From: Owenia fusiformis
Taxonomy: Eukaryota > Annelida > Polychaeta > Sabellida > Oweniidae
Assembly (NCBI GenBank): GCA_903813345.2
Contig: CAIIXF020000001.1
Location: 19,053,915-19,117,914 of the forward strand
Length of the DNA stretch: 64,000 bases
Direction of reading: 5' to 3'
Shown: one piece after another, positions 3,623 through 58,800 of the stretch
Position numbering within the stretch: the stretch's first letter is position 1
Layout of the letters: each line of letters starts with the position of its first letter
Notes under the pieces: model-generated
What the model was told of the DNA's origin: nothing
What the model saw: only the letters and a program-made list of their open reading frames with translations
The model's database searches: none
Translations under genes and position numbers: made by a program

Positions 3623-5220
3623 TATTTGGACTTACTAAGACGGAGAAAATAGAGCACTGAATACACTGAGGTAAGACTTTATTACATGTGCGACAGCATG
3701 TAATTTTCATAGCTTTTGCAATTCTTTATGATCCCCACTGTACTTGTTGATGGCCCTTGATCACATGTGAAGAATATAGGAACCTGAATAAAACTAAATC
3801 AGTGAAGATACATATGCCAAATATGTGCCCAACAAGTTTTTATCATAAGAGCAAAGGGGGATTGAACTGCTAATTTCATAAATAATTTGGCATAATGGAA
3901 ATAATTTCATCTTGATTCTTCACACAATATTTTCTGCAAAATTCCGACCTGGCGACGCCCATTTATCCGTTAGATTTGACATACGTGAGGTATACTACAC
4001 GCCAATTATGATTTAGATATGAAGAATTGCAATTAAAGAACAGTTTGGACTGAATAATGAAGTTATTCTGAGAGGAATAAGTGAGAAAAACAACAAAACT
4101 TACCTAAATTTTAGCTCACTTCGAATTTTTAGTAATATTATTTTGATCGCCCTGCGCATGCGTGAGCGGAAATAAAATTTCCCGGGAAAACTTAAATGGG
4201 GTCTCACAGAGACGCATTTGCGTTAATAAAACTCTTAGATTGATGCCTGGTGAATAACTTCAGTTTAGTGAGTCAAGGAGGAATGATAATTGCATATATG
4301 AATTTTGCTCTCCCCTGGGCCTCTGATCTGTATCAATAATTAAGATCAGTCCCGCCTTTAAAGGGCATGGCGGATTGGGGCCATCATGGGGCTTTCAACA
4401 GATCCATGAAATATTTAACCTCCTCACGGTTTCCCGCATATTCCAATTAGAAACATTTAATAAGAAAATGGATATCTTTGTTTGGATGATTACGAGCACT
4501 AGCGAGGATTTCCCATGCCGGATATATCTAAGCGCCGGGTCAATGACGGTTCTGAGTCCAGTCCATGGGCTTTCAAACAGACCCATTAAGAGGAGGAGGG
4601 CCAGCCGACATAATCCCCTTAGACTTAGACCCATTCCTTTCCTTGGTTGAGATCTATAAAATATATTTACATCATTTAGGCCTACAACATAGCAGGCTAG
4701 CGACCCGAGGACTGAAAATATACCCCTCCCATAGGCGTGGCTGGAGGTTTACGATAGACCGACCACCGATGAATCCTGTGATCGGAGGATGGACCACCGA
4801 CCACCGTGAGTTAAACATGAAAAGCGTAACATCGTAGTGGTCTGTAACGATGCCATATTTTTAAGTGATGTCTCAGTTGTTAGTAGAAGACCACTTTCAT
4901 TCAGGTTAGTCCATTTGGATCATGTTGAGAAAACCACGTAACATAACATAATCATTAAGTTCAGTATAAAAAGAAAAAAAACTTAAAGTCGGTTTTTAAA
5001 ATCACGTCGTCATCTTTTTTAAAGATTAAACGCAATGTTTTCTCAGTTGTTAAACGTCAATCTGTTAAATCTACATGGATATTCAATATGACAAAAATAG
5101 CTTTCCAATGGTGTGCTTAAATTGTTAGTCACTTTTGATCCCTGGCAAGAGAACTCACGTATTTGTTAATCATTTTCATTAGAAATACGTAATTTTCATT
5201 CTGAGCCTACACCCCTAATA
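3623..5220. other. intergenic, no gene recognised
   Basis: Contains the NRF1-like site at 4153 and a GC-richer patch at about 4360-4840 with short overlapping frames on both strands. The patch repeats GGGCTTTCAACAGATCCAT and GGGCTTTCAAACAGACCCAT about 180 bp apart, which suggests a repeat and not a gene. Confidence 0.4.
4153..4163. promoter_or_regulatory. NRF1-like palindrome
   Basis: TGCGCATGCG matches the NRF1 consensus (YGCGCAYGCGC) and sits in a small patch of raised CpG (about 4140-4230). A single site is weak evidence for a promoter, and no gene start is recognised near it. Confidence 0.2.
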
Positions 5221-6506: not shown

Positions 6507-6936
6507 AGTGTGGGTGGAAATAAAAAAGGCAACATCAATTTTCAGAATTAATGCTATATATAGAAATTCATTATTAATTGCCTATTTTGCTACCCTTTGC
6601 ATTCGTTCGACTTCACTTCCTAAAAGAGAGCTTCATCTTCAGTAGTTTATAACTCGACTCTGCGCGCGGGGTACTATTTTGCGTACACACAATCATGAAT
6701 TTTTGAATTCAGATTTTGATTTGAATTTTTGGGGTTGTAATTGTGCTTTATTTGATTGAGTATGGCACATGTGGGTGTAAATAAAAAGGCAACATCAATT
6801 TTCAGAATGAATGCATATATTAGACATTCATTATTAATTGCCCATTTTGCGTACACGTAATCGTGTATTTTTGAATTCAGATTTTAATTTGAATTGTTGG
6901 GGTTGTAATTGTGTTTTTATTTGATTGAGTATGGCA
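6507..6936. repeat. tandem duplication, about 168-bp period, about 2.5 copies
   Basis: The block with GGCAACATCAATTTTCAGAA and TTCATTATTAATTGCC occurs at about 6528 and 6789. The following block (TTTTGCGTACAC ... TTTGATTGAGTATGGCA) occurs at about 6677 and 6846. The first copy is interrupted by about 80 bp of unrelated sequence. Short frames over this region are by-products of the repeat. Confidence 0.75.
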
Positions 6937-7920
6937 CTTCTAAGAAGTAGTAACATTTTGTTATTGCCACCGTTTCCGAGTGTTACATTCACTTCAGCGG
7001 TTGTAACGCATTGTTACACATTCGACGGATTCTCAACCGCTCAATTGTCAATTACTTCATTGCAGTATTATAAATATTTTTCTCAAATTTTTAAATTGAT
7101 AGTTTCAAGTTTGTTAAAGTGGTACTTTGTCTTTTTACTATTTTCCAATATCCAATACCCGAAGAAACTTGAAACTTTAAATGGAGTAAGTAGGAACATG
7201 TAATATCAAACAGCTAGATCACTAAGATGGCATTCTGATACTCATAGCATCTTTCTGTTTCACCATCTCCAGGGTTGAGAAAAATTGAGATGCCAAGGTT
7301 TATCATGATGCTAAGATGGCTATATGGTTGGGATTGTCTTCTCGAACGAAGGGTTTGATTGTGGTTGATTGTGTTTCATTAAACTTGTAATTATCTGAAT
7401 GTGATATATCAAATGCTTAGTTGTTTTCATTTCCTTGGAATACTCAAAACCTCTAGAACCAATAAGAAATAAATCATTAGGTCACACTGACTTAATAGAA
7501 GTGAAATATCGACAATCTAGTTTAGAGCGATTGATAATGTTAACAGTACGGGGTTAATGGGAGTTCCAATGGAGCCTTGGGTTTAATTCCACAAAGACAT
7601 CTTTGTTTAGTAGATCAATACTTAATCTGTATCATGTTGGTTGCTATGGTAACAACATCAGAAGCGTGTATTGAAACGACTGTTGAAGATTTAGTGGATG
7701 GCTATACATCCACTGCGATTATCCAGAGACGACCTGTTGAGCTTTGAAAACATGATTCATTGGAAAGTGATAATATGCAATGCCTGAGGGTTCTGCTAAA
7801 GTTATTAACGGCCATCAGGGTCGTACTATTTGGCACACTTGCTCTTCTGGCAATAACTTGTAGAATTTGGGAACATTGATTTTCCCAGTCCTTCTTTGCT
7901 GCAATTCCATGCATACAAGG

Positions 7921-16581: not shown

Positions 16582-16868
16582 TCACATGACGTCGACAAAG
16601 TACAACTCACAGGGGTTTCCCATCGCCATGCGGAATGATTGGCGGCTTCCACTGACGTCTGGACTGACTTGAGCTAAGTCTCTCGGGGGAGGAATTGGTT
16701 TAGCTGCTGGATCTGGTTTTGTTGGTAAAACAGAAGGATTGGGATTTATGGGTGTGACTCGGCGCATACTCGCCAGAGAAGCTGTGTCTGTGTCACTACC
16801 GCTCCCACTAGCTGACTTGCGATCCAGATTGTTCTTTTTACTGCGACTACTACCAGAAGTGCTGCTAC
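16582..16868 (-). CDS. dsh: dsh exon 16: C-terminus and stop
   Basis: Encodes residues 807-901 and TGA. Ser/Gly-rich [11 protein letters not shown] is followed by a [15 protein letters not shown] segment and proline-rich [15 protein letters not shown]. The final [12 protein letters not shown]...FVDVM is the hallmark C-terminus of the family, which in vertebrate DVLs can fold back onto the PDZ groove. It reads [11 protein letters not shown] where vertebrates have NPSEFFVDVM: one residue longer, with Cys for Ser. The acceptor is gtttgcttacag. Confidence 0.96.
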
Positions 16869-25800: not shown

Positions 25801-28800
25801 AGCCAAAGACAGACAGGTGAGTGTGTGATTCTATAGGCTCTAAGAGTTAACTTTGAAATAAACAATATTTAATGGCAAATAACCAACATTTAAGAGATAA
25901 ATCTAAATGAAAGTAAAATATCTTATATCATAGCTGTCATACATAAAATAATGACCAGTTTCATACGATTTTTCACATTTCAATGTTTTCTGTTCTTGCA
26001 AATCAAAATTCATTATTTTCAGCATTTCTTTAATATTTGAAATGGTCAAAATCTTAAAAACACACAAGAATAAGTTATTTCTACTAAAGGCGCATCTAGA
26101 CCTGAAGTATCTTGACTCTTGAGTGCTCTCAAGTGGATCTATCTTCTGTTAGTAAACTGTGAATAAATCGAACAGTCTAATTATCTTGACACAACAGAGC
26201 TTTAATAAGATATACAGTGTATGTATCAAATCCATTTGACCTGCATAGTGCATCACCCTGATTTAAAGTGCTCAGGCATCCTTCCTTCTCCCTCTGAGGT
26301 ATTTCTGAGATCTTATTATCCACCGCATTCAACTTTGATATCAGTAGGTCAAGAATCCAAGGGAATGAAGGTTTTTCATTCATTTGACTGTTCTGAAGTT
26401 CAGAGTGCCTCTGATATAATTTGATTAACAGGTTAATAATTGACTGGTGTTAATTCTTTATGACCATCAGTAACCTGCAGCTCTGGCTGTATTCCAGAGG
26501 GAGAAAGAGAACTAGTGAAACTAAGGTTGACTCCATTGTTCCAAATATATAAATAATTTACTTACTCTACTAATAGGTGGCAGTTTATGCCGCCTTCTCC
26601 GCCTTTGCCGATGACGCCCATATTTGGATGATCGGGTTGTTGTGTCAGTGATTGTAGAAAAGCGGCTGTCATCCTCTGAGTCAAAGAAACTGGTAGATTC
26701 CAAGTCACTAGACATCATTGAGGACGAGCCATCAAAGCCATAGTTCCGTTCACGTGGGTCTCGATGTTTGCTGTGACCATTTATTCTTGGGACTGCAAGT
26801 AGAGTAAGAATATGTTAAACTTAATAATGCACAATATAACCATATTCAGTTGGAGCTTTATTTGTTTTTATTCATTTCCAAGAATTAACAACTAATTTGT
26901 TATAAAGGCAGGGAATGATTTGTACTTATACTTCACAAAAGCTCATATTCTCTAATCTAAATGGAAGTTTTCTAGTTTCTCTTAACATAGGACTTTTTCT
27001 GTATCATTTTCCCTCTAGGAAGTGACATTTCAGGAATTCTTCCTACTAATAGTTAAAGGACTGCAGAGTATTTTCCCAGCAGCCCAAATACCTTCCTAGC
27101 TACATAAACATAACACACAGTTCCAGACGACAACTTGGAATCTACCATTTTGTCTCTAAGAACCTTGTATGGATTTCATTCGAGATAACTTCCACCGAGG
27201 GACGTCATAAAACATATTTGTGATGTGAAAACCATCTCTACGAGGTAATAAATATTCTTTGACGTACATATTGATTAGCTGTTGGTAAAATATATGAGCT
27301 GAGGTCTAAGTTGGAAGGATAACTTATCAACTCATCATACAGCTTTGAAATGAAAATTACACGATTTTGGAATATTTCCGAACTGTGGATCTACTTTACT
27401 TGCCCTTTGCGATCATTCTGATAATTTTATATCTTAACTCTTCCCTAAAATCAGCAGATCCTTATTTATGTAGAGTTTGCCTCAAAACTCAGCTTGAACG
27501 TAACCATTTGTTAAACAATTCCAATTATTGCTCTTTTTCATGTTTTACACTTAAAAAGGATGAACACAAAGATGACTTATGTAAGAGTCTAAATGTCGTA
27601 GTCAATCATAACTGTTATTAATCAACCAGGCCCAACATCAATCATCCCTGTGTGCTATATGTTCCACGAATTCTACAAGATAGAGAGATCTTCAGATGCT
27701 GGTAGATCTGATGAGAATTTGACAACCATCATGTTGCTTTAACCACATACCTTGAAATCCATAGATTTTATTTGAGGTAACAGTGTTTTTTGCTTTAAAA
27801 AGAAAACACCATTTAAAAAACTGACATGGTTAGAATTTCAAACGAAACCACAAAGCCAAAGAATATATGCAACTTTTGATTGAAATGTATTTATAATATG
27901 GAGTAATATGCTTCAGATCCATATAACTGGGTTTACTAAATTATAGGATTTCTACTTGAGTTGATGTTTCAAATTTGTTACATATTTTTCACATAATCTT
28001 TAGGGATTTGGATTTTTATGTTTTCAAGTTAAAGTGATTTCTTACATCTTAAGTTACTTAAACGGTGTAGAATATCAGTGAAACATTCCCATATACCATT
28101 GTTTAAAAAATAGTCTCACAATTGTTTTAGCCGCCTATCAAATAATTTAAATGCAAACCAACACTTTTCACCTTATGTGTGATACAAGACCAATGTAGTC
28201 ATTCTGATTGAATAGCTTGATATTCCAATTCAAAAGAATACAGCCATTGTAAAATCCAATTCCATAATTAGGTTATAGCACCATAAAAATAGTATCGCTT
28301 AAATCACTATCCATGTTTTTCACACAAATATGCTGTTTTCTAATAATATTTTGCCTAACACGCTATGTTATGACACAATCAAGTTTATAAATGTGATCAA
28401 CAAATAGAGATTGTTTAAAGGTTTCCCTTGTCGAAGTAAACAATGTATTTCTTCTTTCTTTTTAATTATTATTAAATATACCTAATGGAACATAAAATAT
28501 TTCATAGTCACTTTGATACATGTCCTATTAACATCTCATGTTTAACCTTGAAATCAAAACAAAGTATCCATATATTTGAAATTGACTCAGTTTTAAAATC
28601 TTTTTTATCACATGACTCTATTAATTATAATATCAAGCAAAATTTTGACAGTGCATCTCAGTGACAGTCTCCATTTCTAGTTTGCATTGTTAAGATTTCT
28701 GAGAGATACTGAATCGCCGTAGACTTGCTTTAATGCAAAGAAGATCTCATCTCAAACAAAACATCATCAGTATGGATGTGAAATAAATATTAGTTGCATT

Positions 28801-31800
28801 ACACAAGTATTATGCAAAAATGCATGGTCTGAATGGCTCAAGACTAGATCAAAAAACTATTTTTTATTTCAAGAGAATAACCCAAGAGCTCTCACAGAAG
28901 GTAACACTTAACCAGACTTACCATCTATCTCGTAAGTATCAAACACTACACTTCTGGGTATAAGATCTGGCAAAGGTTTCCAAATATCCTCCATTCCATA
29001 ATTATTTGTTATGTAATTTCCATTGATGTAATCATTTCTTTGGATGTCTCCTGTATCTTTAATGTAACTATCTTTGCAATATCCACAATGACAAACAACA
29101 TCTTCTTCAATAAAACTCTGCATCTTTGCAGTAAGAACATCATCATCTTCATCTATTGCTTTGTTTCTTTTACGTTTCTTAAACAATTTACGAAATAACT
29201 TCGATACAAATGGCATTTTACTGTCTTTTGTTGTTCTCAGTTTATGGTAGTTCTTTTTCCAATGAAACCCTATGCAGTAGTCCAACATGACATGTGATCT
29301 TACAAGAGGACCACCTCTAACTTTAAGCGAAATGAACTATAAAACATCTCTCTGTTTAATCAGTATGAAGTAATCCACAGCTTATATTCTTGACATTTGC
29401 TAAATTCTAGTGCCTTGTAATAGCAAATGTTGGATTATCCAGCTACTTCAGGCATGCCACTTTTATAACATGTTATAATCTACTTTTATTTTTGTAATAT
29501 TTTTTTGTCTAAAAGTGTGTGTTTATTCGCCTGGTTAAGCCTATAATAGTAAGCTCTCGACTGGTGAGATTACGATCAACATTACAAATCTGTTCATTGG
29601 TTCTGCAATTGGTGAAACCTCAATCCACATAATATAGATGATATGGCAATTTATCATATATAGACTAATAGTCAAATTCTCTCCAGAGGTTCCAATTCAA
29701 TTTATACTGATCAAATTGCTTCCGTTAAAACATCCGCAGATCTTTATTTCGGTATTATTCAATCATATGCAAAACTTGATCCTCATTTGTAAATGACATT
29801 TCTTTCTCCTTTACTGAGTTAATCAAATTGTTTTGTCTGATTTCTGTAACAAGTGAATGCTGTATTGAAATTGGCAGAAATCGTGGTAGTGCCTTCACCA
29901 TATATTCCGCCTGTAGTTCTGGTTTCTATTCTAACCACTGTCTATTAACAGCTCACTTTCCCAGTGTTAATGCTTGCTATCTGAGGTCTGTAAGAAGTGA
30001 GGGGGTATTGACAGGTACTGTAGAGGATGTTACTCTCTCTATTATGTATCCTTACAACGCAACATCACTCTATAGATTACACAACCCCTCAACTCTTTAT
30101 TTTAAGCTTTCAGACTCACTGAGAATTGATTCAAATTGATTCCACTATCTTCAATGGAATTTCTATCATTCCATACCCTACTGGTCCTTAGCAGATAACC
30201 TAAATGTTCAATGTATTTTACGTATAGTTCAGCTTCAAGACAAAAGAGCATTTTTTATCATTGTAAACCGAATATATTTTGTGAATTTGTCTGCTGGTAT
30301 AACTGAATGAATTCTCTATGTTGACCAGTTTAATGCTTTGCGAATTTTTCATTCATTCTAATCATTCATGTGAAAATCCTTCCCCGGGCCTCAACAAGAT
30401 ATGTCTTACATAATCCAGTCCATTTACAAAAAATATTTAACACTTGAAAATAATAGTACAGTGATTGAGATAAATTAGGTTTGCATTGTGGATAAGAAGG
30501 CTATCAACACTGTGCCAACTTATATGTTTTCCTGTCATGATACTTTTCAATCTCTGCCAATTTTTGATTGCTTCTTTACTCATCCAATCACCTCTCTGAT
30601 GACCATCTTACTTGTGTGGCCACATCTAAATGGCGTTATCACGAAGTATGCTGGAAATTATAGCCTTATACTTCGATCCTTATCTAATTTACTAATAGGT
30701 TTGATGTGTTAAATCACCTTAATGTAATAATGATCAAAAGTGTCATGTTATTTTTGTATCTTTTTAGAAATCTACTTTCATTATCTATTTTATTTTAGTA
30801 TTGCTATTACCCCATATTATGTACATGTATATGTAGCTATTATGTATCTCGAAAGTAATTTGGTAGATGTTAACATTTGGCATCAATATTGGCACTAAAA
30901 GTGTAATGGTACAACTGAGTGGATACTGGATGGTACTTGAAGTCAATTAAATTACACAATTTGTGTTTGTCCATTATCAACCTACCTAAATCCTGGTAAG
31001 TTTGGCATGCATAATTCATAATATCTAAAATAGGAACACTTCGATATACAATCTTCACTGAATTCCCATAAAGATTCTGGCCAGGTTACTTAGAATATCA
31101 GCATGACTTGGAGTATTTTCATCACATCTTCAGTCATAATGTTGATATTTTCTAAAAGGTGTGTAAGCTCACGTTTCATCACTACATTGTAGGTGTTCGC
31201 TATATCAAACGGCAAAGTTAGTTTTAGCAAATGAAACAAAGTTATCTTGGTTAACTGAATCATCTTAGAATATCAAACAAATGTCAAATAAGATGTCTAA
31301 TTTTGTAAGTACACAGAAAATTCACACTAAAACTAATCAAAAAACGGTTAAATCCAGCTTAAAGAATCTGAGCTTAACATAGGAAACGTTTGCTACGGGA
31401 AAATACAATTTTTTATTCTCAAACAAAACATGTATTTGTGTTAAGATATTAATAAGATTATAGATAATTAGATTAATTGATTTAAATACATTTGGTTGAA
31501 TGAAGGTGGCCATGTTTTGTTCAAGTTAAAACTTGCCAAACTGACAATTTCCCACCATCCAGATTATTCCGTCATACCACACATCACACCGGTATATAAT
31601 TCACTAATTCGCAATTTTCATGCTTTTTAAATTCACCGACACATTGGATTCACTAATCCATTTCATATGATTTCAATCGTAAAATCACTTATTTGTGACA
31701 TCATGTTCACGAATGGATCCATTAGGGAAATTAAGCTTCAAGTGAAAGTAATATGTTATTTAGTATGATCTAATTATAGGTTCCCATCTAAGGGAGTAAC

Positions 31801-34800: not shown

Positions 34801-37800
34801 TCTAAAGAGCAACAAATATTTAAATGGAGAATCAGAAATAGCAAGCAATTTTAGCAAAATTGTACCAATTTCAAGAATATCACTTCAAGACTTATATCAC
34901 ATAGAGGCCTATTAATATTGTAAAATAACCTCCCATAGTATACGACTCATAGACAGATAATCAAATCAAAACGATTCTTCATAATACGATAACAGTAAAC
35001 ATCCTGGCTGTCAAAAGAGCTAGAAGTTTTCTAATCTAGATTGACAAAACTGTCTTAGAAAATGGCATGTCCCGATAACTCTTTCTACATATAACTCACT
35101 GCACTAATCTCATATTCTGATATTCTGCCATGGATATTATTGATTTAACCATGGAAAGATTTGTAGAAGTGATATTTTCTGAAAAAATCATTCAAGTTTG
35201 TATCTTTACCATATGAGAGATCTCTGTGGGATTTCTAACAATACAAGTGATCTCCCCAGCATTGAAGCAAGTATCCATTTGAGATTTTTAAAAAAATTGC
35301 ACTTGCAAAAAATGGTCATCTTTGGTCAAAATTGTGAAAACTAGAATTTTATACCCATTTGAGGTGTAATTTCTATTTCTAGAGTATTTCCTTCATTTTT
35401 CAGGGAAAAATATTCTCTAGGACTACTCATTTCAATCACTTCGCATTATTTGAATTTCAATCAAGAAAGGAAATTAAAATAGAGGTGCAATACTGTCCTC
35501 ATCATATTAATATATTTTTCTTGCAATTTTCTCATCCATGTCTTATCATTCCATAATCTGCCCATAATTTGGAACCATTCAATCTATTTTACTCATCACA
35601 ATATACACAAGGAGTTAAATGAGAAAATCCTTGAAATGAAACATCAAAGTAAACCGCGATCAAAACAAAGAATTGACGAACAAGCAAACTGCTTGAGCAA
35701 ATACCAAAAGTGAGGGTTAATTATGAGTTTAATGATTTGTGAATTTAGTTTGAGTAGGTTTTAGGGTCAAGCCTTTTGAAATAAATTCAGTGAAAAAATC
35801 AGTGGAAGTATATGGACTGATTGCACGTAGGAGTGATTGCAACGCCATCCGTTGTCAAAACAAGAGATAACTTCTCAGTTAGATCCTTCATGTCTTTTGA
35901 TTCAAAGACCACCAGTACTGAATAGTATAAAATTCCAATTCTCATGAAGTGTTTAATTTGCACTTTTTCAAGTCCCTATTGGCTAACTGTACACATAGAT
36001 TTCATGGCTATTAATGGGGGTTTGAATATAAATGAAAATTAACTCCTTTTAGTCACAAAAAGAAGTGTCATAGTTCTCTGACTGCATATTCTAGATACAC
36101 ATGACTTCCAAAGTGTTATCTCAAATTTGGAGCATGAAGAAATTCCAGAATGTCTCATGGATATACAGACTTGAATACCAGAAGTCTGAAATGACATTTC
36201 TCTGTGCCATTGTATAGAATAAATGATATTAACTCCCAGTAAACACTTAATAAAAATTGTCTGGTCCATTCCAGATCCACTGGTGTCATTTTTCACAACG
36301 CCAACTTGAAATCTGGATTTCTTCAAGTTGTTCACTGTGAAACCTGGTTAACCGTATAACAAATATTATTTAAATATACAGTACAATCTAAATCAAATAC
36401 ATGTACATGTATATGTATGTACATGTATATGAAATGTTGCCTAAAAAAATAAATACGAAATATTTTTGAAAATCATAACTTTGTTCCAATACTGATATGA
36501 ACTACACACAACACACACACACATACAAACAAAGCTAAGCATTTATGGACATATCTGCCGAATACCTCCTACCCTATTATATTTCTAGGCAATTGTATAT
36601 ATTATATTTAGGCAAGCAGCAAGGTAACCTTTATTAGAAACATGGTAATTTATCTTTAAGTCACTATTACTGTGAATTATTCAGGATCCAATTATTTTAC
36701 CCTTGCAATGTACCAAAATGTATCATGGGATTCTTCCAGTAAACCCTTTGCTCAATGCTATAGACCCATTTCTCAGATGTATTCGGGCACACAGTTCATC
36801 TTTGAAACTCACCATTTGGATGGTACTGCGGGTGTGATGGTTGCCCTCTCAAGGCGGGATGCATTCGAGGGTCGTAAAACCTCGGATCCTGAGGGTGCAT
36901 GAAACCCTGAGGCTGAGGGGGGTTATAGTGGATGTTACCATGGCTTCCTATTTGGCCTGACAAATAAAGAACATAAACATGTCGCAAAATAAAATAACAA
37001 AAATCGTGCATTAAGCAAGACATCTGAGTACCAAGAAAACTTCGAATAATAATACTCTCATTAAAAAATTTAACGAAGGTTTCTTGGCATCTATCAAATG
37101 CATATAAGCAACCATGCAACACGTGTATTTCCACCATCAGTGAAGATCAACTCCCATAAGCATCAAACTTCCCATGATGCACTATGTCACAACAGAATGG
37201 AAGCTGAAAGAATGAAATAAGCAAAAGCATTAATTTCTGTCCGACCCTTCCTACTTTTGTCCAAGCATTAGATGAATAGCTCTGTTATATATTCTGAATA
37301 AACAATTGAAAAAGATCTGCTCCAGGGAGCATATTAGTATTATTGCCCATTGTTGATCAAAGATGTTAAAAAGCAAGTCTGTTACATGTTCACTGAATAT
37401 TGAAGCTGGCTGTTTATTGAAGCATGACCATATTCAAGCCCCAACTAGTCATGCTTAAAATATATAGACTGTTGACACGCAATAATACGTTGATGAAATC
37501 TGAAATGTTCTTGCCCAATGTAAATCCATGCTTTCATGACATAGTAGAAACTTGAATGAGATAACCACATTATACTGGGTGTTGCCTAGCCATATAAATA
37601 CCTTTCAAAAGAATGGCCTTCAGTATGACTCCCATAAATGTGATGGTATGTATGGTAGATTTCAAGTTTTTTATTCTGTTTCTCCATGCATACTTCATGC
37701 CAATTCAAATTCAGCAAATTAAAAAATGACAAATTTTTGATTTCTAAAACCTTCAATTTGATTTTAGGTTTGACATACGAGGGTAGAAAACTTCAATCCC

Positions 37801-43800: not shown

Positions 43801-46800
43801 ATCTCATGTTATTTGATTCTGAAGAAGTGTGAACAGAGATATAAATACTCTAGATTTTACATGGAGTGTTTTTCCACATTTTTTGTCATTTATTAATGTT
43901 TTGAAGCACCCCTTATCATTAGAGAGTGGAATGTTGTTCAATAAGAACTATTACTTTTAAAGCTTAACTTCCCCTTAAGCATACAGGTATTCTCCCAAGT
44001 TTATTTCATCATACTGTTATTATAGCCAAGCTACAAGCCCCCGTGACCCCCTCTCACTATTTGACTACACATCTTCTCACACAGGAGGGAGGGGTTTATT
44101 GGGGGGCTCACAAGGACTTGTAGCTAGGCTACTATTATTATAGCAAGCACCAAGACCCTGCCCCTCTCCCTCTCCCCCCTCCCTGTTATCTATTTCCCCA
44201 CTCTTTCTCTATCATGGGTTAGGTGGAAGTAAGGAGCACAGACTTGACTAGATTAACCATATGACCATTAATTGAACCATTTGTATAGCATGTCTTATAT
44301 GTTTACTCCCAGGAAGCAATGTGAAGGAGCTACTTTAACTTACATGCAATAAATGAGGGGGTATCTTAGAAACCAGTTCATGTTATATAAACCAATGTCT
44401 TGAATAGTGAAAGTCAATGCGAACTATACACATTGAAAATTCAGACAGACCTATCATTTAACAATATGGTTAGATATATTTTCAAAGCATTTCATATACG
44501 TATATGTAACCAACTTTATATATCTGGTTTTATTTGCTCCAACTTAGTATAACTACCTTGAAAAATGCAATTTATTAGAGACAAAGCGAATACATATATC
44601 ATTAATTCAGTATTCTTTCTTTCAAAACAAGTATGAAACCGGTGTCAACTGAATTCTACACATTTGTCAAAATATCTGTTTGCCTATGTGTTTTGCAAAG
44701 TCTTGCTTCATGCCATTGTGACATGATGCAAGAGTACTACTGCAATAGTAGAAGTTATTGTACTGTACATCAAAACCTGTCTGATGAAATTCCTTTCTGT
44801 GAGGAACACCTCCTAGAAGGAACTTTTTTCATAAAAAACACACATTTTCCCATTGACTTACATAATGGCTCTCAGTAAGGAACACTTTACCTGGGAATAG
44901 TTTCAGCCAGTACAGAGGATGGTCCTTGTTCACAGGTTTTACTGTATTCTCATAATAATAAGTAGTGATGAAGTGATAGAGAGTCCATTTGTATATCAAG
45001 AATAATGATTAAGCACTATGTTAAGAAAAAATTCTGGAGACCACTGTATATTTTGTTTGTCATATAAGATGCAAGTAGCAACAGATTATTTATTCTTGGA
45101 CCAACTACCACTTGTGAAAAGAAGCTGCAGTTCGTCATCTTGTTTAGACGAAGCATTATTTCCCAATTGACAACATATCAGTTTACTAATCATGTAGTAA
45201 CTGAAATAATGAAGTTGATATGGAGGATTTTTGGGAAAGGTAAGAAGTGAGATACTGGAAGAATTATATACAAAAATATCTTCTGGACTTCTCCATACTG
45301 TGTCAGAAATCTATTATTCTAGGGAATATCTAGTTTTTCCCATACATCAATTCGATGACTCATATGATAAATTACGGCCACTAATTAACTTCTATATTAT
45401 ACTCATAGACTCCTTCAGATTGTTCAGAAGAGGTTATTCCGTGACTTCTGATGCATGGGTTCAGCTTATCATAGCATAACACATTGTAATACAGTATCAT
45501 GATGTAGGAGTGGCAACACCCTTTTGTCAGAGGTTGACTTTGTGTTACCAAAAGCATCTTTATCTATGAAGGCTAGACTGCTTTCTAAATGTGTCCAAAA
45601 GAGGCCCTTATCTATAAAATGTGGCAGTACTGTGATGGGTTTCATGGCATATGATTCCCAGGGGCATAATGGTAATAACAATCCATAAATAGGTCATAGC
45701 CTCAATCATAATCAATTTGTCTTTCAAACCTGACAATGAAGAGATCATTTGTGCCTTAGAAAATGCTCTTTTGACATGAAACTATAGCACATAAATATCT
45801 ACAAAAGGATGTTGAATTAATTATCTTGCACTGGGCCCTTGTAATCTGTCTCAAAAAATAAATTCAACACCAACCAGGGCTTTATGTAAGATGAGAAGTC
45901 AGTGCATTCAACAAGCAGGTTTTGCTAATTTTGCACCTTTATTCACCACTCATCCCTATCTGATTCCCGAAAAGTGAAAATGGAAGGAATAACACATGGT
46001 GTTGATGCAAGACTATCCAGGAAACAAAATTTCTCTTTACTCTATTGGAAGAACAAAGAAACTTGTGGTTGAGTAGTTCCTGAGCCTTGATCCAGATGAT
46101 GACTTCCAGTGTTTCCATAAAGACAAGACAGATACATATAATTTACATGGCCCTTGATACAAGTACCAATCAGTACACAAGACCAATACCTCATTCCCTG
46201 ATTGCTTATGAATTAATACTTAATGATGGATGTCATCTCCAGCTTCTTGCTTCATTGCCACCGATTCATTATGACATAATAATACTGGCTATGACACCCC
46301 CAATGTGCCTGTAATTTCCATAGACACAACATAATAGTCATATTGCAAATATCATTTCCATCAAGCCAAATTACTATCCATCTCTCTTGAGAATGGCAGC
46401 TAAATATTAGCTATAGGATGAAGATTGATATATTTGTACGGGGTTAACATGAGTCATCCATCTGTAGATTTATCCTATATTATGATCTAGGTACTGTATA
46501 GGTACTACCTACTAGGTAGAGTAGCACTACAGTGCAATTTGATCTATGTTGATCAGGAATCAGTATTTTCAATACTTGATGTATACCTTTGAAAGGTGAG
46601 GGTGAGGACATCTACCAATCGCCAATGCTTTCATTAAATGTGGCACAGGTGTGTTTGATCACACATGAGAGAGAGAGGTTCGCTTCCTAGCTAGACAGCA
46701 ACAATTATGTAATTTGGTTTAATTGAATTATCATGTTTTATAGACTCATGATCAGGGAAGCGAAAGTAACATATGTTTTTGGGCATCTTGGGGCACTTAT

Positions 46801-52800: not shown

Positions 52801-55800
52801 AAAATGTGGAGGAAATGGATTACGATTTCGAGCTCTTTAGGCTCTTGGAAGCCGATAACGGTCATCGAAAAAAAAACTAGAATATTTTCTGAATTGAAAA
52901 ATTGAACATTCGAATCGCTGCAAATTCAGATTTGGATTCTGACCAGACGAAGAGGCGGAGCGGCGGATTCCGGAGGAGTATTCATGGTATATTTATGCCC
53001 AGTCGTGTTAATGTACGAAAAAATTCATGAGAACATTTTTTTTCATGAGCCAGGCCACTGTATCTTCCCTTTGTGAAAATTTTATCCAGATTCATTCGGT
53101 AGTTATTGAGATATTAATTATTTAGTCCAGGCATATCATTTTTTGCACTCTTTGAAAAATAAGCCAGTTGCGTGGGATATATTTGCTGAAATAAGGCAGC
53201 ATGGTAAAGGTTAATGTGTGTACTTACCCATGATACAACTCTGCCATTAAAACATGGCAGATGAGCTTCTTCATCTACAATTTCTTCTTTTACCACCCTG
53301 AAACACAAAAATGAACACACGTTTAGTATACAAATATGGTTATACATCAAGATAATGAACTCTATTCTCTCTCCATCTCTATTCCATTGTTAGGCTGGGG
53401 TTTGTTTTTGGAATGGTTGTAACTTACGATTTGGTTGAAAGTCAATGTTTGTCAAAAAGTAGACAATGATTTCCTGGAATTGTTCGCTAAGATTTTAACG
53501 AAAACTAACCCCTGAGTAAATGAGAAGAGAAAGAAAGGGTAAAGGAAAGGAGTTTGATGCAAGACAAATTATACTTATATCTGACTGACCAGACTTAATG
53601 TAAGACTATTAAATATTTGACCAGTGTTAGATTCCGTTCCATGGAGTAAAAAATCCTCAGAGAAACACTTATATCATTGAAGACGTTTGATGTTGAAGCC
53701 TGAGTGACAAATCAGGGGTATCCAGGCCACACATAAACATGCAATAAAAATAAGTTTATCAGTATCTTCATTGATGTCTTATTTTCAAAGTTCTTATCTT
53801 GCAATAAAACTATCACAACAAGGAGACACAATAATGATAGTACCTGGCCTGGATATAAGTTTCATATCAGAGAAGGTCAAATCTGAATGAACAAGTGTAT
53901 TGATTTCAAATAAAGGGAAAGCTATCAAATCAGTAACCACAATCTACCTCTCTAGTGAAGTTCCTACAGAAAAGACAGTTAGTACACTCCCATAAATATG
54001 GAGTTTTTTGCTTTTAATATTTTCTACTCGCCAAAACAACAGTCCCACGATTTAAACCTCTCAAAATCTTAAGTTGAGTAGTTTCTTAGAATGCGGTGAC
54101 TTTAGATCTTGAATAGCTTTGCATAGTGAGGATAGTTCAGTACTATCAAGACCTGCGGAGCCACCTACCCTCACATTCGTAGAGTCTAAGCACCAGTTCA
54201 CTGGACAAGTCTCAAAAATATCATTGAGTTAAGTTATCTGAAAGGTCTGACAAAAATCAAACAATTTGTTATATACTGCTATACAGCATTTTCTTATTGC
54301 TGATATGAATATGCATTGCTCTGGACAACTCAATGAAATCTGATTGAAAGAATAAAAGGAAAGTTGAAAGGCATGAAGTAACTGACTGACAGGCTGAGGT
54401 CAGAAATCTGGCCAAACATCAACACTAAAATGTACCCTGGAGTCAACATCAAGTGTACTACCCTCTTACAAAGACCAATACTTTTACAACTTGCCATTCA
54501 ATCCTTTGCCCTGAGCTCACCACTAGAATACTTATCTCTAAGGACCAATGTAGACTAGATACGAGAAGAAATATTCTTGATTTAAGTTATTAAATATTCA
54601 AAATTCAGTCAAAATGATGTTATATTTGAAATCTACATGTAAAGGTACATGTAGAAATATGAAAATTGTTTATCAACTTTGAAAATTTAATTTTTTTTGA
54701 AAATGTGACTTCTAGTTAAAGGAGATTCCCCATAGACCCCCATGTTATTGTCACAAAAAGTGAAATGTCTCTTCTTGTATTGGAAGATACATTTTTTTCT
54801 TTTACTGGACATATTCTAATTTGCATAACTATTAGATGAAAATTGAACCACTAAAACAGATGAATATCTAAGTTAAAGGGAACTTTCTACTATACCCGCC
54901 ATGTTATCTGACCTGAACGAGCCACCCGACGGTAAAACTGTAACTACTTGCTCGCTTCTGAGTTATTATTTTATAGTTCGGCATTCAACCCTTTATCCTG
55001 AGGGTTGGAACTGAACTCCTTGGATTTTTCTTTTTCAGAAATAAAATTACTATTGAAAGGGTCCCAACCAGCCAGTCTGTAGCACAGCAATCTCACTGTG
55101 ATTTGTTTACTTTTTCAATGACTGGCTCTGAATTGTCACAGTCAATTTTGCTGTTAATCGTTTAAATAAAGAGTGTAAGGTGAAATCAATCACTCTGGCA
55201 AAGGGTTATGCAAACCAACAAAATATCATCATTTCAACAACTTGCTAGCAGCTATCAAGAAACAAAAAATTACTTTGAAATCTTTTTTGATGATTCTGTT
55301 TGAAAGAAATCGTTTGATGCTCAGAATTCTACCAAAGGTCAACACAGAAGATGCAACATCAGAAAATATGCCCTAATTAACCTGTTAATTACTGGAGAGG
55401 GAACATGAAAGAGATTTTTGGTAGATTAACACCGCCTTACATAAACAAGTTACAGAAATCCTTACATATGCAGATATCCTTATATACACAACGCTAATCA
55501 TTTCCAAAACAATCAAGTAGCCTACATAACTTTAATGTAACTTATGAAGAGAATATATACTTTAATAGGTCAGTTCAATGATCTCCACAAGATTTAAGTG
55601 GGTGCAAATAGATTCTCAGGTGGGTGCAAGCATATTATCAGAATCTCAGGTGGGTGATGCGCCCTCTTGCTTTAATCACTGCAGTTATTCATGATCTTGG
55701 TATTGTTTGAGAATTGTTATATGAGAAAAACAAACTGTAAAATTAATAATCATAATACATCACTGGCTTCATTTGAAAATCTTTACAATCTGGGAATATC

Positions 55801-58800
55801 TACGGGGGGAGGTGGATCCCTAACAATAACTTTTTATTTATTTTCAAAGCCTGTGCACCTCACATTTGGGAGGGGGCTCATACCATATGTTTATATGCCT
55901 AAATCTTCATTAGAAATTCTTATACATTATATAACCTTATGTTTTTTGAAACTATACAAAATGCCACTGTTAAACTTATATCTGCAATTATCAATTGTAA
56001 CAAAATTAATCCTTCAACATGTTACTCAGAACTTAATGGTTAACTTGGTTTCACTGTATACATTGAAATCTGAGAAATTATGGAGATTACAGGCAGTTAT
56101 CAAATGGTTTAACACATTCCTGTTGGTTTTATAGATTAAAGTTCAGCTGGGTTTTCTATACAGATGTAATGTGAAGTTTTCATCCAGCTGTAACCAAGCT
56201 ACATTCACAAAATTAAATTAAACAAGCTTGATTCTCTTTCCAAGGAAAGGCAATGGGTGCTCAGTATGTGAATATGGTACATGTTTATCTGCTTCACATC
56301 TAGAACTTTCTCTCGTGAAAGTGAGGTTTTAAGAGGGAGAGAGGGTCACAATGTCGAAAATCAACAAGAACATGGTCCGGTAAAGGTAGCAGGCTAACTA
56401 TGCTTAATCCTTCATTCTAGTGCCTTGTTGCAAACATGATGTAATGTCAGAACGATACAACATCTTGTTTTATTGTAAAAGCACCATTAGTCTGTAAAAT
56501 AACCCCTTTTTAGCTGTACCTATCCAAAAGTCCAAAAGAAGAAACAAAATCAAAATATTGAAAATGGTACTATTTAAATAAAATAAAGCATCAGTCTACA
56601 AAGGGATATCATGATACGAGCTTCTAGTAGTACCATAAATGAACTTTTTTTAAAGAACACAAAATTTTTGAAACGGGTACCAGATGCTAATAAATTACAA
56701 ACAAATTCTATTTAGAGAGGATTATCACAGACCTGTGCCTCTCTACCAACTGCCCAAGATCAATAGTAATAAGAAGATCTCTAACTTTCTAATATATATT
56801 TTTCCCATGCGGCAAATCACTTTCCAATTAACTTAACAAATTCATTCATCAATAAACCATAAACCAACCATTTTTTCTATATATGACCGTGCTTTTGGCT
56901 CCAACAAAAAAATCAGGGTCCATGACCCCAGTCATTCTGGAAAACTTCTTTCAAATATCACTGAGGAACAATCACCAAAAAATGTCTGCAATAGTTCAGA
57001 TGATATACCACTATAAGGTCAAAAAGGTATCGAAACAAGAGAATACAACAACTCACGGTCTCACAATTTCCAAATAGAGAAACTTTTATTCTAAAACCTT
57101 TAAAACAAGATAAATATACAAATTGATGGCAACATAATTTGGTTGATTCTCATCAATTCAAGATTTCCCTTATCTTACAATGTGATACATATATAGGACT
57201 TAATACGGATCATTTTACCCTTTACAAAAGCAAGAATATGCTACTGTGGCTTTTGCCAATGGGAATTCAGGATATATCTCATCTCCTTAGTAAACTCATA
57301 ATGGATGATCATATTACAGACACAGATCTCTTCATATGCAATAATAGAATTTATCATTATAATTACTGTACTTTAGTATAATTACATTGAATTGTTAGTT
57401 CTGTGTTGTTCAAAATAGAGGAATTTTGTTATTAGACATGGGCGAATGATAATTTTTCATTGCATAATAGATCCTTATTAGTGTCAGATATACAGAGGAA
57501 ATCAGATTATGGAATTGAACCCCCTGTAGGCAAGTTATTATCAATTTTCTTTATAACTGTCTTTCCAGACATTATAGAATAATATTGCAGATTCACCAAC
57601 TGTATGATGTAATCATCTACCAGAAAACATTCACATAAACAGGCAATCGCTAACAGTACCGCATGGAATGATTTTGGCACATTTGTGAAATATGGTACCG
57701 TGTGGTATAGAAGACTAAAACAGTACCATGAACACTGTAAGGCATGAAAAGAAGGAAAGAAAGATAGGAAATTTGAGGATGGGTAAAATTTCACAAAAGT
57801 CTTACCAAAATAGAATGTACCTCAGGACAAAGAGAAATTAGATAAAATAGTTCATCACAATGATGCAATGGCAGACACTAAGAAATGAAACACAACAGTC
57901 ATGTATCTACAATATACAGCAATTATCACATAACTAAACCTTTTAAGCATGAGAAAGGGACCATATTGACCATTCATTTAGCAACCTTACTTGACATTTC
58001 CTCTCATTATACTAGGCAAATAATTAATCAGAATTCCATAATATCCAGTCAAATAGCTACTGTCTATATACCTGCAACAGCTAGATCAATATAACCAGCC
58101 TCTGATAAGAATTCCTTTATACCCTGTGCAAGAGATTGGCTATGCTCATACTCTGGAATATTTAGAGATATTCATTTGAACCTACATCTTAATAGACTAT
58201 AAAAATATCAAGAAACTTCATTTTCATCTAAATGTCCCTCGTGCACATTAATTTCGTATTCAAACTCCTATAAAAGACTATGAAAGCTGCATTTGAGCTC
58301 GTTAAGATCATAAGAATATCAAAACAGAGGGTGGTATGACTTGACAATGGGGGTTCAGGGTAAAAGTTCTTGAAATGACACATTTCACTGATATATCTAA
58401 GATCAATAGCCTACATATGATACATTTCCACAATCAACATATTGATTAGCTATCATAGTTGACGTCTCTGAATCTAACTTCATATGCCTGTCAGAGATGT
58501 TGATAATGAGAAGCTGAGAGGGGATTTTATTAGTACCATAATAGTGACAGTGTAGTTACAGGCCCTCGTGAGTGGGGATCACAGGGGCTTGTAGCTAGAC
58601 TATGAGCATTGGTAATATAGCGTAGTATTGTAGAGTAGTAAAATTTGACAAAATTGATGTTAGCGTCTCCCATGTTTTGAAAATTATCTTACATCCATCT
58701 TGAAACCTGCACATCTTGAAAACTGTCACAATAGGAAATCTTGCTCTTTACATGAAGATGAAGCTCCCTTTTAAGAGGCAAAGTCAAATAGATGGAAAGA

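Follow-up and report, generated by a model that had tools for sequence, protein, structure and literature searches.

Dishevelled gene and its intron 5

The window, by which we mean the whole 64-kb stretch of DNA that was analyzed, carries a dishevelled (dsh) gene on its minus strand, with the coding start at 61666 and the last base ahead of the stop at 16585. Exons were placed by tblastn with a human DVL2 sequence as the query, and splice sites were set by reading. The assembled product matched the Pfam families DIX (1.7e-30; 3-78), PDZ (1.2e-19; 291-366), DEP (1.5e-16; 475-544), and Dishevelled (5.7e-43), with DIX, PDZ, and DEP in that order, and its top-scoring solved chains in the PDB were DVL1-3 (best 60 of 211 matches). 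At the level of sequence, these matches confirm the host gene as Dishevelled. Exon 6 begins TC CCA AGA... at 26792, and intron 5, which precedes it (36812-26793, minus strand), spans 10,020 bases.

16585-61666, minus strand: dsh coding sequence, first ATG through the last codon ahead of the stop (tblastn, Pfam, and PDB matches; stop position)
36813-36956, minus strand: dsh exon 5, which normally precedes exon 6 and ends ATG/GTGAGT in the same phase as the candidate exon described below
26566-26792, minus strand: dsh exon 6, to which the candidate exon would be expected to splice (acceptor score, 13.4, itself left out of the matrix)

Elsewhere in the gene, the end of exon 10 (about 24563-24473, minus strand) is tandemly duplicated together with its donor. 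Two GAACGTAAGTG sites lie there 45 nt apart and in frame; depending on which donor is used, about 15 residues (a repeated 10-residue motif) would be included or left out. A possible alternative 3′-terminal exon after exon 13 (20060-19819, minus strand) is in phase behind the acceptor tgtttgtcttgtag (score, 7.3); it encodes 80 residues ending ...STSSSTGL, followed by a stop, had no Pfam match, and, if used, would give Dishevelled another C-terminus.

An open frame running into an in-phase donor

Within intron 5, on the dsh strand, an ATG at 29288 opens a frame of 126 codons that ends at the stop 28910-28908; read upstream, the frame continues without a stop as far as 29336, which gives 142 codons from stop to stop. 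Codon 122 is followed by one more base, at 28922, and then directly by GTAAGT (ATG/GTAAGT), and the predicted junction with exon 6 at 26792 reads ID-V-PRING, in phase. Because the phase at the end of exon 5 is identical, the candidate could replace that exon ahead of exon 6.

28922-29288, minus strand: candidate for an alternative first coding exon, running from M1 to ...YEID over 122 codons and one further base (open frame, donor, phase, codon-position bias)
28923-29216, minus strand: shorter version of the frame, from Met25, 98 codons, ATG context AAAATGC, with the strongest coding-like signal
28916-28921, minus strand: splice donor GTAAGT after ATG (matrix score, 9.9)

Donor and acceptor matrices were trained on the gene's own sites, with each site left out of its own matrix. 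The 13 dsh donors, left out in turn, scored 6.0 to 12.6, a range that includes the candidate donor (9.9), and 13 of 3,430 GT sites on the unmasked minus strand scored at least as high as the candidate. The anatomy given by the first-pass annotation (a 122-codon ATG frame on this strand of intron 5, ending in a GTAAGT donor in exact phase to exon 6) is confirmed.

Chance was gauged with 400 simulated stretches of 40 kb, drawn from an order-3 Markov model of the unmasked minus strand. ATG frames of at least 122 codons that led, in this single phase, into a dsh-like donor arose 6 times (0.015 per stretch), and those that ran into GTAAGT in this phase arose twice (0.005 per stretch); counting three phases would treble the simulated chance figure. 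On the real minus strand, with all phases counted, four rows of at least 70 codons led into donors, namely, the candidate and three rows at true dsh exons (one at exon 5 with an open upstream stretch, two at exon 13). The plus strand, again over all phases, held three ATG frames of 80 to 85 codons into dsh-like donors (6931-7185, 44633-44874, and 4565-4805) and none above 85; the model expects about 0.4 (0.085 per 40 kb and phase, at least 80 codons). Since the plus strand exceeds the model, either the simulated 0.015 is optimistic or some of the plus-strand frames are real.

The frame had also been called long for such DNA. Length alone is not striking, since 0.48 frames of at least 142 codons are expected per simulated window on both strands; length combined with an in-phase donor, at the simulated 0.015 per 40 kb, is the stronger point. 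Dinucleotide-keeping shuffles of the candidate sequence were stop free in 1 of 20,000 cases (122 codons), 1 of 20,000 (98 codons), and 0 of 20,000 (142 codons), figures that are not usable as probabilities because the frame was picked for being open. The longest stop-free frame of the window lies elsewhere (55676-56131, plus strand, 152 codons) and had no Pfam match.

Codon-position statistics were compared with 423 simulated ATG frames of at least 90 codons. The excess of G at codon position 1 for the 122 codons was reached by 8 of these and that of the Met25 frame (0.153) by a single one, when every simulated frame could use its best ATG. For the overall codon-position chi value, 38 of the 423 matched or exceeded the 122 codons, and 10 of the 423, with the best ATG again allowed, did so for the 98. 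A second comparison, with 526 simulated stop-to-stop frames of at least 100 codons, gave, for G and chi respectively, 3.6% and 8.0% with the 122 codons and 2.5% and 2.7% with the 142. The G excess at codon position 1 is coding-like and favors a real exon.

Codon usage was less telling. The candidate scored −0.104 per codon, compared with a mean of −0.251 (standard deviation [SD], 0.126) for 130 intronic frames and a range of −0.20 to 0.275 for the 13 dsh exons left out in turn, which places it between the intronic frames and most exons; the synonymous part of its score equals the intronic mean. Scoring trained on dsh has low power here, because dsh exon 1 itself scores −0.20 when left out. In residue composition (−0.013 per codon), the candidate lies nearer to general proteins than do the 130 intronic frames (mean, −0.133; SD, 0.091).

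An intronic open frame might, then, have met a good in-phase donor by chance and been spotted after 64 kb had been read. The expected 0.48 frames of 142 codons, the 152-codon frame that had no Pfam match, the three plus-strand frames above the model, and a codon usage that is not dsh-like all speak for such an accident, but it must combine a long frame, a donor equalled by so few GT sites, the phase, a TATA box (see below), and the G excess, and the plus-strand frames into donors never exceed 85 codons. We regard coincidence as somewhat unlikely.

Near the start of the candidate product, a basic 19-residue stretch has a net charge of +9; the hydrophobic moment, taken over 11-residue windows within and next to it, rises as high as 0.85. 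A high hydrophobic moment is a trait of membrane-binding amphipathic segments. Single-sequence structure prediction of the candidate was uninformative (mean pLDDT, 31.6). The frame found no relative in Pfam (best E, 0.22), in the PDB (best E, 0.42), or among viral contigs and prokaryote genomes; these negatives count weakly against an exon, because none of the collections searched is of animal genomes.

Putative promoter, acceptors, and rival structures

29460-29467, minus strand: TATA box TATAAAAG, one of two copies of this octamer on the window's minus strand
28922-29320, minus strand: rival cassette exon, 399 nt (acceptor at 29320 scoring 1.3; phases from exon lengths)
28863-28868, minus strand: AATAAA, 40 nt beyond the in-frame stop, which could be the poly(A) signal of a short product made without splicing

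The octamer TATAAAAG at 29467 lies 179 nt upstream of the candidate ATG; for looser TATA forms, the counts on that strand of the window are 12 and 24. Usual TATA spacing would put the start of transcription near 29436, and, given that start, three upstream ATGs (29396, 29347, and 29293) open short frames ahead of Met1, a point against the first-exon reading.

No strong acceptor lies near the start of the frame. Between 28925 and 29600 there are 53 AG sites; the highest score upstream of Met1 was 1.3 (29320) and the highest within the frame 3.4 (28966). The 12 dsh acceptors, left out in turn, ranged from −2.0 to 15.0, with 1 of 12 below 1.3 (at −2.0), 2 of 12 below 3.4, and 11 of 12 at 2.2 or higher. 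The weak acceptors point to a 5′-terminal exon, short of proof, because true dsh acceptors score −2.0 and 2.2 when left out. Farther upstream on the minus strand, acceptors scoring 8.8 at 29987 and 30232 could serve an untranslated upstream exon.

A 399-nt exon starting at 29320 would be in phase with exons 4, 5, and 6, for which reason an internal cassette has to be weighed as well; spliced between exon 4 or 5 and exon 6 (29320-28922), it would insert about 133 residues and keep DIX. The frame is open back to 29336, and exons 4 and 5 both end in the phase that such an exon requires. Its acceptor (1.3), however, falls below 11 of the 12 left-out dsh acceptors, 14% of unmasked AG sites reach 0.7, and the TATA box is left unexplained, so that a cassette seems improbable.

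Downstream of the candidate, the strongest acceptor is that of exon 6 (13.4 left out) and the next best lies at 28546 (9.5; removing exon 6 from the matrix raises this to 10.1), where a stop follows after one codon in the candidate's phase. An AATAAA 40 nt beyond the stop makes a compact gene nested in dsh intron 5 a live rival: from the TATA box at 29467, it would use an unspliced frame of 126 (or 102) codons with its stop at 28910-28908 and the AATAAA at 28868, or it would be spliced to a 3′ exon within the intron, for example at 28546, and the phase match to exon 6 would be fortuitous. TATA box, frame, and AATAAA do stand in order within about 600 nt, and the acceptor at 28546 would end the frame after its one codon. 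Against this, an AATAAA occurs within 60 nt at 6.4% of sampled minus-strand positions, the donor goes unexplained if the product is unspliced, and the exon 6 acceptor is the stronger of the two. We judge a nested gene quite unlikely.

A mobile-element remnant or retrocopy would suit a large intron, but a second copy is absent from the window, and the frame had neither a Pfam match nor a relative in the viral contigs; this origin appears very improbable.

The reading of the frame as an alternative first exon, made in the first-pass annotation, gains from the acceptors, the TATA box, the donor, exon 6, and the G excess; it does not gain from codon usage, which is not decisive, and the nested gene is a live rival to it, the cassette a less likely one. 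We consider it plausible, at slightly under even odds (probability of about 0.45), that dishevelled has an alternative 5′-terminal exon whose coding part is this frame.

Predicted isoform and known DIX-less Dishevelled

In the isoform predicted from this alternative first exon, the intronic promoter (TATA box at 29467, start near 29436) would drive a transcript beginning in intron 5; splicing would then connect 28922, just ahead of the donor, with the first base of exon 6 at 26792. Exons 1 to 5, encoding DIX and the linker after it, would be replaced by 122 residues, or by 98 if translation began at Met25. The new N-terminus would carry the basic amphipathic stretch near its start, which may help membrane attachment, and the product would retain the basic patch, PDZ, and DEP. 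The DNA itself shows the host gene, the open frame, its donor and phase, the TATA sequence, and the absence of a strong acceptor; from these we infer transcription, splicing, translation, and each step of function.

Pfam, applied to the predicted fusion through exon 9 only (294 residues), kept the Dishevelled and PDZ matches and gave no DIX match; DEP is encoded beyond exon 9, further down dsh. If such a transcript is made, this predicted fusion would fit the earlier expectation that DIX is lost and PDZ kept; the rival cassette exon would keep DIX. A product that lacks DIX would not undergo head-to-tail DIX polymerization and would thus be expected in DIX-independent signaling (Frizzled/Ror, polarity/outgrowth), like dsh-1b of Caenorhabditis elegans. 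A role as a natural antagonist is possible, and nothing here supports it.

Taken as a whole, the proposal is that a second, TATA-bearing intronic promoter, with a first exon that swaps DIX for an N-terminus of 98 to 122 residues (basic amphipathic lead, CHCGYC cluster), yields a Dishevelled dedicated to polarity, which would rely on that N-terminus, and not on DIX assembly, to reach the membrane or its partners. We put this forward as a speculative scheme that is, on balance, rather unlikely. How one Dishevelled is steered between beta-catenin and polarity signaling is an old question, and a promoter that swaps DIX for another N-terminus would, if true, be a directly testable gene-level switch, parallel to nematode dsh-1b.

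The first-pass annotation knew of no described isoform of this kind, but a DIX-less Dishevelled has a precedent: dsh-1b of C. elegans is a Dishevelled isoform without DIX and rescues a dsh-1 null (PMC3564985, relaying Song et al. 2010). The same paper, again relaying Song et al. 2010, maps Ror/CAM-1 binding to PDZ and DEP and gives dsh-1b as the only form shown to be expressed in RME cells. Asuu-dsh-1 and Ppac-dsh-1 are stated there to be nematode orthologues without DIX; PMC3564985 elsewhere gives DIX as present in Ppac-dsh-1. In dsh-1 null muscle, DSH-1a minus DIX restores the localization of TWK-28 (muscle polarity), for which PDZ and DEP are required (PMC11164867). DIX-independent function of Dishevelled has precedent, and the known DIX-less isoform, dsh-1b, is a working outgrowth form.

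Because dsh-1b already lacks DIX, the novelty of the predicted isoform is reduced. What would remain new is the predicted intronic promoter with its replacement N-terminus of 98 to 122 residues; literature searches on Dishevelled isoforms, DIX loss, and alternative promoters turned up no description of a dishevelled first exon lying in an intron. The C. elegans form dsh-1b resembles our prediction in being a DIX-less isoform of a Dishevelled gene and differs in being from a nematode; a long new N-terminal extension from an intronic first exon belongs to the prediction made here. Asuu-dsh-1 and Ppac-dsh-1 are, as annotated in the same source, whole orthologues, in contrast to an isoform added to a gene that encodes DIX. 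DSH-1a minus DIX (PMC11164867) is an artificial truncation that carries no replacement N-terminus, unlike the product predicted for this locus, in which 98 to 122 residues would take the place of DIX.
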